Assembly: GCA_016870915.1 (NCBI GenBank)
Contig: VFZY01000019.1
Location: 1 to 48,017, forward strand
DNA: 48,017 nt
Source: Acidobacteriota bacterium
GTDB lineage: Bacteria; Acidobacteriota; Terriglobia; Bryobacterales; Bryobacteraceae
Direction: 5' to 3'
Made by a program: the position numbers and the translations under genes. This document shows, in pieces, positions 24,648-29,763 of this stretch (its first letter is position 1; the number at the start of each line of letters is the position of its first letter). Under the pieces are notes generated by a model. It was not told the origin of the DNA and did not search any database. It saw nothing but the letters and a program-made list of their open reading frames with translations.

Positions 24648-25900
24648 CAGCCGAGCACCTCGCGCATGGTCCTGAAGAAGAGGTCGATGTCGGAGGGCCG
24701 CGTGTGAATGTGCGAAGAGAGGCGCATCACGGGACCCTCGGTGCACCAGATGCGGCGCTTGCGCGCTTCCGCCCACAGCTTCTTCAGGTCGGGCTTGTTG
24801 ATGCGAAAAGCCACCAGGCATGCGTAGAGCCTGTGATCCTGGCTTGAGAGCGGTTCAAGATAGGGGATCTCGGCCACGCGCGCATACACGCTTCGCGCCA
24901 GTTGATGGATGCGTTCAAAGATGCGCTGAGGGCCAATCTCCTTGTGGAAGCGCAGGCCCGCCATCATGCCTTCAAAAATGGCCCGGTTGTTGGTGCCCAC
25001 CATCTGGAAGCGCGCCGCGCGAAGCTCCTTCTTGTTGTTCCAGGCGCCGGTGACGGTGTTCGCCCACAGATTGTCCTGCACCTCATCGCGGGCGTAGAGA
25101 AGACCGCAACCGGCGGGAGCGAAGAGCCACTTGTGCGGGCTGCCGGCGAAGTAGTCGCAGTGCATCTCGCCGATGTTGAGCGCCATCTGACCGTTCATGT
25201 GCGCGCCGTCGACGGCTGTGATGACGCCCTTCGAGCGGGCGAAATCGCAGATCTCGCGCACGGGCATGATGACACCGCTCTGGCTGAGCATGCCGCTGAA
25301 GAAGAGAACGCGGGTGGAGGGCCCGATGGCCGAGGTCATGACGTCGGCCAGTTGGCCGGAATCCTTGGGCGGGAAGGGGATCTTCACTTCGCGCACCTTG
25401 ATTCCGTAGCGCTCCGCTTTCTGATACCACGGGCTGCGGCCGCTGGGATGCTCCTGGTCCGTCATGACCACTTCGTCGCCGGGTTTCAGGTCGATGCCGG
25501 CGGCGATGGTGCTGAGCGCCTCCGTGGCGTTGTGGAGGAAGGCCAGTTCCTCTTTCTTGCAGCCGAGATACTCGGCGAATTCGGCGCGCTCGGCATCGAG
25601 CGTCTCGTAACCCCAGCGCGGATACTCGTGGTTTGGCATCAGCAGCCCGGCGGACCGGTTCACGTAGTCGACCATGGCGTTGATGACGGGCCGGGGCGTG
25701 ATGCCGAGGGTCCCGTTGTTGAGGAAGACGCGTTCTTCCGGCAGCAGGAACTGCTCATCGCGGATCCGGCGCCAGTACTTTTCCTGGTTCTGGCGGAACA
25801 GCGTTTCATCGGGCAGCGCAGCGGCTTTCAACTTCTGCAACGTGGGCAGCCCGAGCGCGGCCGCCATCAGGCCGCGTTCCATCGCCTGGCGTCTGTTCAT
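24647..25900 (-). CDS. Tat-exported class V aminotransferase (isopenicillin-N-epimerase-like), second copy
   Basis: 417 residues from the ATG at 25900, preceded by GGAGGTGA at good spacing. MNRRQAMERGLMAAALG is a twin-arginine type leader. The PLP fold is visible: FLNNGTLGITPRPV, LAFLHNATEALSTIAAG, VVMTDQEHPSGRSPW, VITAVDGAHMNGQM (cofactor aspartate) and FAGSPHKWLFAPAGCGLLY with K257 as expected PLP lysine. It belongs to the same broad family as the gene at 13617 but is clearly diverged from it. Its substrate is unknown; an exported barrel isomerase is encoded directly downstream. It is divergent from a cytochrome-PQQ protein with 36 bp between. Confidence 0.88.
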   Translation of the reverse strand: MNRRQAMERGLMAAALGLPTLQKLKAAALPDETLFRQNQEKYWRRIRDEQFLLPEERVFLNNGTLGITPRPVINAMVDYVNRSAGLLMPNHEYPRWGYETLDAERAEFAEYLGCKKEELAFLHNATEALSTIAAGIDLKPGDEVVMTDQEHPSGRSPWYQKAERYGIKVREVKIPFPPKDSGQLADVMTSAIGPSTRVLFFSGMLSQSGVIMPVREICDFARSKGVITAVDGAHMNGQMALNIGEMHCDYFAGSPHKWLFAPAGCGLLYARDEVQDNLWANTVTGAWNNKKELRAARFQMVGTNNRAIFEGMMAGLRFHKEIGPQRIFERIHQLARSVYARVAEIPYLEPLSSQDHRLYACLVAFRINKPDLKKLWAEARKRRIWCTEGPVMRLSSHIHTRPSDIDLFFRTMREVLG

Positions 25901-25936
25901 GTGAGGGTCACCTCCAAACCGGGTATCCTTTCAATC

Positions 25937-27727
25937 ATGCCCCACGCCCGGCTTTGGATGCCACTGGTGCTCGCGTGTGCTCTGGCGGCGGCTCCGCCGC
26001 CCGATGGCGCGGCGATCTTCGGCAAGCAATGCGCGGTCTGCCACAAGGAGCCGCCGGTGAATCGCGCGCCGCTGCCGGAGGCGCTGCAAAGGCTGCCGAA
26101 GGAAGCGATTCTGCAGTCGCTTGCGGGCGGCAGCATGAAAGCCCAGGGCGATGCGTTGACGGCCGAGGAGCGCGATGCGGTGGCCAGCTTTCTGGCAGCC
26201 AAACCGGCGAAGGCCGAAGCGGCCGATGCCGTCCGCTGCGCCCAACCGTCGCCCGAGTTCCGCAATCTCAACGGCTGGAACGGCTGGAGCATCGGTGAAA
26301 CCAACGCCCGCCAGGTGACGGCCGCGCAGGCCGGGTTCGGCGCAAAGGATCTGGGGCTCTTGAAGCTGAAGTGGGCGTTCGGATTTCCGGGCGCCAATGC
26401 GGCCTTCGGCCAGCCCACGGTGGTGGACGGGCGGCTGTTTGTGGGCAGCGCGAACGGCACGCTGTATTCGCTGGAGGCGTCGTCGGGGTGTGTCTATTGG
26501 ACGTTCAAGGCGCCGGGGACCGTGCGTTCCGCGGTGACCGTGGGGCGCGCCGGGGGTTTGGCCATCGCCTACTTCGGCGACGTGGCCGCGAACGTCTACG
26601 CGGTGAATGCCAGAACGGGTGAACTGGTGTGGAAGGCCAAGACGGACGAGCATCCGGTGGCCCGCGTGACCGGAGCGCCGCGCCTGGAAGGGGGCCGCCT
26701 CTATGTCCCGGTATCGTCGGTGGAAGAGGTGCCGCCCGCCAATCCGAAGTATGGCTGCTGCACCTTTCGCGGCAGCGTGGTGGCCTATGAGGCAGCCACG
26801 GGGAAGCAGATCTGGAAGACGTACTCCATTCCCGACCCGGCGCGGCCCACGCGGGTGAATGCGGCGGGCACTCAGTTGCATGGCCCGGCGGGCGGGGCGA
26901 TCTGGACATCGCCCACCATCGACCGCAAGAACAAGGTGCTCTACGTGGGCACCGGCAACAGTTACGCCGACCCGGCCGCGCGCACCACCGACGCGGTGCT
27001 GGCCATTGAACTTGAGACTGGGTCCGTGCTCTGGTCAAAGCAGTTGACGCCGGGCGATGGCTGGAACTTTTCCTGCTCGAATCCGAACAAATCGAACTGT
27101 CCGGAGGAGCGTGGGGAGGATTTTGACATTGGCGCCTCGCCGGTGCTGGCGGAGTTGGGGGGCGGGAAGCGGCTTCTGCTGGTGGGGCAGAAATCGGGTG
27201 TGGTCTACGGGCTGGACCCGGAGCGGCGCGGCGAGATGGTGTGGCAGACGCGGGTGGGGAAGGGAAGTGCGCTGGGTGGGGTGATGTGGGGCATGGCTGC
27301 CGGGCGCGACGCGCTGTTCGTGCCGGTATCGGATGTGAACAAGGGCAAGCCGGATGAAGTGGGCGGGCTTGCCGCGCTGCGGATCGCGACCGGCGAGAAG
27401 CTGTGGCATGCGGCGCCACGGAGGCCGGAATGCATGGGTAAGTTCGGGTGCACGGCGGCCCAGATGGCGCCGGCAACCTTGCTGGATTCGGCGGTGCTTT
27501 CGGGTGCGATGGACGGAACACTTCGGGCGTACGATGCGGCCACGGGCGAGGTGATCTGGGAGTTTGCGACGAACCGCGAGTTCGAGACGGTGAATGGCGT
27601 GAAGGCGAAAGGCGGGTCGCTGAACGGCGCCGGCGCCACGGCGGCGGGCGGCATGCTGTTCATGCTTTCCGGCTATGGCGTGTTGGGCGGCATGGCCGGC
27701 AATGTGCTGCTGGCGTTTGGGCGTTAG
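25937..27727 (+). CDS. Cytochrome c / PQQ beta-propeller fusion (polyvinyl-alcohol-dehydrogenase-like)
   Basis: 596 residues from the ATG at 25937; the frame is open for a kilobase upstream, but that part is antisense to the aminotransferase. MPHARLWMPLVLACALAAA is a signal peptide. A small cytochrome c domain follows with CAVCH at 32-36 and a methionine-containing segment (GGSMKAQGDAL). The propeller from about 100 to the end has blades such as FVGSANGTLYSLEASSG, VYAVNARTGELVWKAKTD, VVAYEAATGKQIWKTY and LRAYDAATGEVIWEF. NPKYGCCTFRGSVVAYE holds a vicinal cysteine pair; vicinal cysteines are a known quinoprotein feature. It probably oxidises an alcohol in the periplasm and passes electrons to its own haem. 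Confidence 0.9.
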   Translation: MPHARLWMPLVLACALAAAPPPDGAAIFGKQCAVCHKEPPVNRAPLPEALQRLPKEAILQSLAGGSMKAQGDALTAEERDAVASFLAAKPAKAEAADAVRCAQPSPEFRNLNGWNGWSIGETNARQVTAAQAGFGAKDLGLLKLKWAFGFPGANAAFGQPTVVDGRLFVGSANGTLYSLEASSGCVYWTFKAPGTVRSAVTVGRAGGLAIAYFGDVAANVYAVNARTGELVWKAKTDEHPVARVTGAPRLEGGRLYVPVSSVEEVPPANPKYGCCTFRGSVVAYEAATGKQIWKTYSIPDPARPTRVNAAGTQLHGPAGGAIWTSPTIDRKNKVLYVGTGNSYADPAARTTDAVLAIELETGSVLWSKQLTPGDGWNFSCSNPNKSNCPEERGEDFDIGASPVLAELGGGKRLLLVGQKSGVVYGLDPERRGEMVWQTRVGKGSALGGVMWGMAAGRDALFVPVSDVNKGKPDEVGGLAALRIATGEKLWHAAPRRPECMGKFGCTAAQMAPATLLDSAVLSGAMDGTLRAYDAATGEVIWEFATNREFETVNGVKAKGGSLNGAGATAAGGMLFMLSGYGVLGGMAGNVLLAFGR

Positions 27728-28911
27728 GAGGGTGTGAAGAGGCGGACGAGACGGTCCGCCACGCGATCCTCATTGAAGCGGCGCGCGGCGGCGCGGGCTT
27801 TGCGGCTGGCCTCGCGATAGGCGGAATCGGAGTCCCAGAGCCGCAGGATCTGGTCCACCCATGGGCGTGCGGCGGCTTCGTCCACGGGCTTGTCCTGTTC
27901 GAGAGTGAGGTCCGGTGGCAGGGGGACGACGATGCCGCCGCGGCCGACGGTTTCAGGCAGGCCGCCGCGATCGCTGACGAGGGGCGGGATGCCGTTGATC
28001 ATCGCCTCGGCGGCCACGCGTCCGGCGGCCTCTTCAAGCGAGGGCACCAGCAGGATGCGGGTTTGCGCGAAGATGTCGCGCGGGAGGGGAACACAGTTCA
28101 GCACGTGCAGGTTGGAGTTCCTGTGCAGGTCGAGCTTTCCGAGATGACCACAGAGGACCACCGTGCCGGCTGTGGCCCGCCCTTCCACCAGCAGGAGGGG
28201 GATATCGGGGCGTTCGTGTCCAAGGATGGCGGCGATCCGCGCGACGACGGCGGCGCCTTTGGCGTAGCTGGGGTTCACCATGGTGAGATACGGCCGTGGA
28301 CCGGGCGGGGCGAGAACGTCCTGTGTGATCAGGGGATTCCGGATGACCGTGGTGCGAAGCCCGAACCGTTCAGCATAGAGATCGCGGAGATAGCGGGATG
28401 GCACATAGGTGGCTCGGACGGGATCAAAGACGGTGCGGTCGTGGTAGTGAATGGAAAACAGGCCGAAGGTGACGGCCACATTGTGATCAAGAAGCATGCG
28501 CATGCGGGCGCGGTCCGGGGCGCTTTGGCCATACACAAGGGCATGGTGGGGGCGGAAGCGGCGCAGTTCGCGTGCAAGCAGGGCGTCGAAGACGGAGTTC
28601 GCGATTTCCGTGGCCCGCTTGACGGTGACATCACCCACGTTGAGAATGGCGAACGAGACGCCACGGCGCTTGAATCGCCAGACGTTGGAATTGGCGCGGG
28701 GGCGGACGCCTAATTCGTCAAGCGTGCCTGCCGCTGAAGCGCCAGCGTATTGTTCGGACGCGGTTGTGCCAACGAACAGCACCTCAAAGCCGCGTCTTGC
28801 GAGAAGCTCCCCCGCTGACGTCATGTCGCGTGCGGCGCCATTGGCCGGGTCGTGCGGGAACTGGGGGATCATGATCAGGAGCCGGGGTTGCGTCGGTCTC
28901 ATCTGCGCCAT
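27724..28911 (-). CDS. GT4-type glycosyltransferase
   Basis: 395 residues from the ATG at 28911 (MAQMRPTQPRLLIMIPQFPH); an ATG at 28902 is equally plausible and would suit a leaderless transcript. The GT-B fold is visible: an N-terminal Rossmann domain with GAARDMTSAGELLARRGFEVL and a C-terminal nucleotide-binding domain with PYLTMVNPSYAKGAAVVARI and LLVPSLEEAAGRVAAEAMINGIPPLV. The last is the family-4 E-x7-E motif region, with glutamates flanking AAGRVAAE. The acceptor is unknown. It ends 4 bp inside the cytochrome-PQQ gene on the other strand, and its start is only 10 bp from the divergent CYCYC gene. Confidence 0.85.
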   Translation of the reverse strand: MAQMRPTQPRLLIMIPQFPHDPANGAARDMTSAGELLARRGFEVLFVGTTASEQYAGASAAGTLDELGVRPRANSNVWRFKRRGVSFAILNVGDVTVKRATEIANSVFDALLARELRRFRPHHALVYGQSAPDRARMRMLLDHNVAVTFGLFSIHYHDRTVFDPVRATYVPSRYLRDLYAERFGLRTTVIRNPLITQDVLAPPGPRPYLTMVNPSYAKGAAVVARIAAILGHERPDIPLLLVEGRATAGTVVLCGHLGKLDLHRNSNLHVLNCVPLPRDIFAQTRILLVPSLEEAAGRVAAEAMINGIPPLVSDRGGLPETVGRGGIVVPLPPDLTLEQDKPVDEAAARPWVDQILRLWDSDSAYREASRKARAAARRFNEDRVADRLVRLFTPS

Positions 28912-28916
28912 AATAG
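28888..28916 (+). promoter_or_regulatory. Candidate promoter of the CYCYC selenoprotein gene
   Basis: TTGCGT at 28888-28893, a 17-bp spacer and TAATAG at 28911-28916. The ATG at 28922 follows after five bases, so transcription would start at or beside the first codon (leaderless). The same A/T core reads TATTAT on the minus strand just before the glycosyltransferase start. Confidence 0.35.
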
Positions 28917-28921
28917 CCTGT

Positions 28922-29359
28922 ATGCGAACGCTGCTCACCTGGCTTGCGTTGACGGGCGCTGGGGTGATGGCCTGCTGGTACATCCCGGATGCTGAGGGCG
29001 TTGCCGCGCAATCGGCCGCGCAGAACGACGTGCCGCCGTATCACGTCTCGGAGGCATCGGCGAAACCGTTCCCGCGGCTGTTGGCTCCGGAGACGTTCCA
29101 GAATCCCGTGGTGCGCAAGGTGTACCAGATCGCGGCCACCATTCCGGGCGTTTTGGCGCAGCAGCCATGTTACTGTTACTGCAACCGCGCGGGCCACAAG
29201 GGGCTGCTGGATTGCCACCGGGATGCGCACTCAGCGGGTTGAATGATCTGCATCAAGGAGGTTCTCCTTGCCGATCGCCTGCACCGCCAGCAAAAGACCC
29301 CGGCACAGATCCGCCGCGCGATCATCGCCGGTGAGTGGAAGAGCGTGGACGTGCGCTAG
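28922..29359 (+). CDS. CYCYC (PCYCGC-type) lipoprotein, candidate selenoprotein with UGA at codon 107
   Basis: The reading frame runs from the ATG at 28922 to a TAG at 29357-29359 with a single in-frame TGA at 29240-29242 (codon 107), giving 145 residues if read through. The N-terminus MRTLLTWLALTGAGVMAC is a lipoprotein-like leader. QPCYCYCNRAGHKGLLDCHR (CYCYC 83-87, C98) is the PCYCGC-family core, probably metal-binding. After H103-S-A-G the UGA stands where the family has a cysteine, followed by M-I-C110, making UxxC instead of CxxC. The next 35 residues (IKEVLLADRL, KTPAQIRRAIIAGEW) keep the family pattern, so the frame is under selection beyond the UGA. A hairpin follows at 29254-29270. 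The alternative is a TGC to TGA nonsense mutation. Confidence 0.7.
29254..29270 (+). promoter_or_regulatory. SECIS-like hairpin downstream of the in-frame UGA
   Basis: CAAGGAG-GTT-CTCCTTG forms a perfect 7-bp stem with a GUU loop; opened by one pair it has a GGUUC apex. The loop begins 18 nt after the UGA. In E. coli fdhF, as I recall it, the GGUC apical loop of the SelB-binding stem also starts 18 nt after its UGA. A G-U apex and this distance are the main features of bacterial SECIS elements. Confidence 0.6.
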
Positions 29360-29763
29360 GCGGGAAGCGCGCCCAATTGCGCCATCAGGCCCAGGAAGTC
29401 CGCCTGGCTCCAGCGTTCGACGCACTTGCCGCCGGCGAAACGGAGGATGGTGATGCCGGGCAGCACGATGGCGCGGCCGGTGGCGGGGATGCCCTGGAAG
29501 GCTCCCTGTTGCGTGGCGTGCATTTCAAAGCGGCACACCACTTTGTCTTCCGCTTCCAGGGTGTCCAGCACCCTGACGCGCGCATCGGGAAACGCCTGCC
29601 AGATTGCCGCGTAGAAGGCAGCGATGTTGGCCTTGCCCGGGCCCACGCCCTGATAGCCGTGCAGGATGGCTTCGTCCGCGTAGAGGTCCAGATAGCGATC
29701 GCGGGAGGCGGGGTCCGAGAAGTGTCCCAGGGCGGTGTTCAGGATCTCGAGATTTCCTTGCAT
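29356..29763 (-). CDS. SnoaL-like/NTF2-fold polyketide-cyclase-type protein
   Basis: 135 residues from the ATG at 29763. It has the cone-shaped NTF2 pattern: YLDLYADEAILHGYQGVGPG, IAAFYAAIWQAFPDARVRV, DKVVCRFEMHATQQGAFQGI, GITILRFAGGKCVERWSQAD. This is close to SnoaL-like ester cyclases, a family including aldol cyclases and many small proteins of unknown role. A real substrate cannot be given. It lies downstream of pilC on the same strand, and its stop codon shares the palindrome CTAG with the stop of the read-through CYCYC gene. Confidence 0.85.
   Translation of the reverse strand: MQGNLEILNTALGHFSDPASRDRYLDLYADEAILHGYQGVGPGKANIAAFYAAIWQAFPDARVRVLDTLEAEDKVVCRFEMHATQQGAFQGIPATGRAIVLPGITILRFAGGKCVERWSQADFLGLMAQLGALPA

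Follow-up and report, generated by a model that had tools for sequence, protein, structure and literature searches.

The closest described system is the CYCXC family, a little-studied group that a 2026 review lists among the known selenoprotein families as "CYCXC family protein (hypothetical protein OS_HP4)", with the PF13798 domain and a UxxC motif, and to which it assigns no metal role (PMC13188914). OS_HP4 with UxxC is likewise among the known selenoprotein families in a second review (PMC9312934). As cited in these two papers, the family's first report as a selenoprotein was OS_HP4 of the Olavius algarvensis delta symbiont (Zhang and Gladyshev 2007), and PMC13188914 credits OS_HP4 to that 2007 symbiont study. 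The corresponding NCBIfam model, NF041379 (OS_HP4_CYCXC), is named "CYCXC family (seleno)protein". Members of PCYCGC (PF13798) are lipoproteins in Parageobacillus (PMC13068155).

The gene described here lies in an acidobacterial contig, in the stretch of 48,017 nucleotides that was analyzed as a whole and is referred to as the window. Its frame (28922-29359, plus strand) runs from an ATG at 28922 to a TAG at 29357-29359 and holds a single in-frame TGA at 29240-29242. With the TGA translated as U, the product has 145 residues, U being residue 107, and its C-terminal part reads ...QPCYCYCNRAGHKGLLDCHRDAHSAGUMICIKEVLLADRLHRQQKTPAQIRRAIIAGEWKSVDVR*; ordinary annotation would cut the product at residue 106. 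The protein scores 98.8 bits against NF041379 (curated cut-off, 90), and the match (residues 51-137 on model positions 2-88 of 90) spans the TGA, more than chance would give. Family sequence is kept up to the TAG, as an earlier sequence-only reading had noted. A genome scan with the same model gave 94.6 bits for the window gene, with one TGA inside the match. The motif pattern of NF041379, C-[YF]-C-x-C with a downstream [UC]-x-x-C, is present as C-Y-C-Y-C (C83, C85, and C87; codons at 29169-29183) and U107-M-I-C110. The protein also matches PF13798 with 32.8 bits (gathering cut-off, 25) and has the PCYC motif in common with PCYCGC proteins, but it carries C-Y-C-Y-C rather than C-Y-C-G-C, and Sec replaces one Cys. 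The N terminus, encoded by 28922-28980, is hydrophobic and contains by eye a possible lipobox (GVMA-C18), which makes it a probable export signal.

Compared with the NF041379 family, the window protein is alike, including the Sec/Cys column and the UxxC motif, and shows no essential difference; it adds one more member to the family, this one encoded by an acidobacterium. OS_HP4 of the Olavius algarvensis symbiont, as described in the two papers citing it, belongs to the same family and has UxxC, but it comes from another phylum. The sequence-only reading had proposed a new selenoprotein. This claim is unsupported because OS_HP4 with UxxC has already been catalogued as a selenoprotein family (PMC13188914, PMC9312934), and "(seleno)protein" already stands in the NCBIfam name. 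The window gene is instead a well-supported new acidobacterial example of a known selenoprotein family.

The same reading had placed the in-frame TGA at the first Cys of the family's C-x-x-C, and the alignment of homologs confirms this. Scanning of named genomes yielded 80 loci, which together with the window make 81; the labels of almost all 80 are Acidobacteria, Terriglobia, Bryobacterales, or Solibacteraceae. Column 107 is UGA in 22 of the 81 and Cys in the other 59, with no locus lacking either, and the UGA stands at the identical column in the window and the 21 further assemblies that bear it. A separate draw of 299 genomes gave the same UGA/Cys picture, with 16 distinct UGA genes, the window included; a profile search of the 299 genomes of the class found the family in 159, and several among the matches listed hold one in-frame TGA. 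All 68 aligned relatives keep C83, C85, C87, H92, C98, H103, and C110, together with Sec or Cys at column 107.

Just downstream of the UGA, a SECIS-type hairpin is predicted (29254-29270, plus strand), to which SelB is predicted to bind. It has the form C-AAGGAG-[GTT]-CTCCTT-G, with 7 pairs and a short loop of 3 bases, and begins 11 bases after the UGA. Since the loop is preceded by G, the apex reads GGU, the form seen in bacterial SECIS elements. When the 24 bases lying 9-33 past the codon were folded, a stable predicted hairpin, defined as -7.9 kcal/mol or lower by a threshold set after the data had been seen, was obtained for all 22 UGA genes and for only 1 of the 59 Cys genes. The mean fold energy of these 24 bases was -8.4 kcal/mol for the UGA genes versus -3.4 kcal/mol for the Cys genes. 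A control with shuffled synonymous codons, for which 16 UGA and 30 Cys genes partly shared with this set were used, gave a mean z of -2.6 for the UGA genes and 0.06 for the Cys genes. In the alignment of the 22 UGA genes, 97.4% of the cells can pair, a share that drops to 44-57% once the partner columns are displaced by 1-3 columns. Covariation in the hairpin is weak because the pairs hardly vary, the only two double-sided changes both being found in L108. Moreover, the near-invariant stem overlies the conserved peptide KEVLL, so amino acid constraint accounts for part of its sameness. The contrast of predicted folding with the shuffles and with the Cys genes is therefore the stronger argument for the hairpin. 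In the more distant UGA genes of L038, L059-L061, and L075, the stem is of another kind (GCGC...GCGC type), lies slightly further downstream, and also folds.

These observations bear on whether the TGA might be a sequencing or assembly error in an ordinary Cys member of the family, the true codon being TGC or TGT. TGA and TGC are one base apart, and the window is known from assembled sequence. However, the same error would have to stand at exactly the same column in 21 further assemblies, and the window has a predicted hairpin that is absent from 58 of the 59 Cys genes. We consider an error very improbable.

Equally improbable is that the TGA is a nonsense mutation or a genuine stop, with the protein ending after residue 106 and the remainder decaying. 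UGA is normally read as a stop, but the residues after it are family-like, the Cys of UxxC does not vary, and dN was lower than dS for the 33 codons past the UGA in all 21 pairwise comparisons with the window. The differences over these 33 codons, summed by codon position, were 233, 155, and 318. Such comparisons indicate purifying selection on the codons downstream of the UGA.

The sequence-only reading had relied on recoding by the bacterial Sec system, and selA, selB, selC, and selD were all found in the genome, which is 96.9% complete and comprises 6.6 Mb in 367 contigs. The tRNA-Sec scored 70.7 bits and was called tRNA-SeC with the anticodon tca by ARAGORN; profile search gave 378.5 bits for selB, 477.6 bits for selA, and 361.9 bits for selD, and all four exceed the curated cut-offs. 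Both selA and selB were searched for an internal UGA, and none was found in either. The selD gene (L026:938-1870, minus strand) has an in-frame TGA in KAAGU, a Sec-type site, and the selenium donor enzyme of this genome is therefore probably itself a selenoprotein. Adjoining selD in the same locus (L026, G000:C318), at about position 2225 on the plus strand, is a peroxiredoxin-like frame with an in-frame TGA in FTGGUTKE, which is likely to encode a second selenoprotein of this genome. Although UGA encodes other residues in some lineages, recoding as Trp, Gly, or Cys through a code change or a suppressor is the least probable explanation of all, given the Cys found at this column in relatives, the full Sec machinery and bacterial SECIS-type hairpin, the UGA codons at Sec-type sites in selD and the peroxiredoxin-like gene, and the lack of internal UGA in selA and selB.

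We regard it as very likely that the window gene encodes a Sec-containing CYCXC/PCYCGC (OS_HP4) protein of an acidobacterium. The UGA/Cys column, the SECIS-like hairpin, the selection on the downstream codons, and the full set of Sec genes all support the 145-residue selenoprotein with UxxC that had been read from the sequence. We suggest that the gene is expressed and that the hairpin that follows closely in the mRNA would direct the decoding of UGA 29240-29242 as Sec by SelB with Sec-tRNA. The protein would thereby carry a U-x-x-C pair beside the C-Y-C-Y-C motif and would be exported, perhaps with a lipid anchor.

The family's Sec form is found in several acidobacterial lineages beside Cys forms, with repeated switches on the tree. 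The tree was built with the Sec/Cys column masked and, because only 105 columns were available, many of its forks are weak. On this tree, the Sec/Cys label changes about 5 times (4-6 over the bootstrap trees; the starred branches force at least 2), compared with 19.6 times when the labels are shuffled. As far as such a tree with many weak forks can be read, the family has switched between its Sec and Cys forms more than once. A tandem CYCXC pair in L071 has UGA at the column in one gene and TGT in the other. The UGA member of L085, a record titled Acidimicrobiia (Actinomycetota), is placed among acidobacterial ones on the tree, which reflects either a mislabelled bin or a transfer.

For the function of the protein, we tentatively favor a role in the envelope, in which the Cys/Sec/His cluster would bind soft metals (copper, silver, or mercury), or reduce them and pass them on, while giving this reading slightly less than an even chance. 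A general thiol or peroxide redox role without metal handling is its equal in probability, as UxxC is a classic redox motif and the family review names no metal role (PMC13188914). On the other hand, C-Y-C-x-C, Cys98, His92, and His103 match UxxC in conservation and exceed what a simple dithiol needs, and metal-efflux genes adjoin the gene in some loci. A CusA/CzcA heavy-metal RND pump is encoded near the CYCXC gene in 9 loci, 7 with UGA (L078, L089, L093, L097, L098, L102, and L106) and 2 with Cys (L101 and L103). In L106, a small cytochrome c gene lies between the CYCXC gene and the pump, and L101 also has a heavy-metal P-type ATPase and YtkA-like proteins nearby. Because 5 of the 7 UGA loci with a pump neighbor fall in one clade of the tree and the window locus has no metal-pump neighbor, this adjacency is a testable functional lead rather than proof. 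A more specific proposal is that acidobacterial selenoproteins of the CYCXC family handle metals in the envelope, with Sec as the soft-metal ligand or reductant working together with CusA/CzcA efflux pumps. It is possible but rather unlikely; if true, a selenoprotein family now labelled "hypothetical" would take part in resistance to copper, silver, or mercury.

The AlphaFold model, with a mean pLDDT of 86.2, is a small helical protein with a core of good confidence. Searching solved structures by sequence gave nothing below an E value of 0.75, and a Foldseek search of the model against the PDB gave no match below 2; the fold thus provided no functional reading.

An apparent recurrent neighbor (cluster 8, 16 loci) was rejected, as it is the antisense frame of the CYCXC gene itself. 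In the window, the gene is flanked by a glycosyltransferase gene (27724-28983, minus strand, longest ORF) and a SnoaL-like gene (29356-29763, minus strand). The longest ORF of the former overlaps the start of the CYCXC gene, an overlap that a later glycosyltransferase start would abolish. A long ORF occupies 24902-27727 on the plus strand, and its second half resembles by eye a secreted quinoprotein-type beta-propeller dehydrogenase with a CxxCH heme motif.
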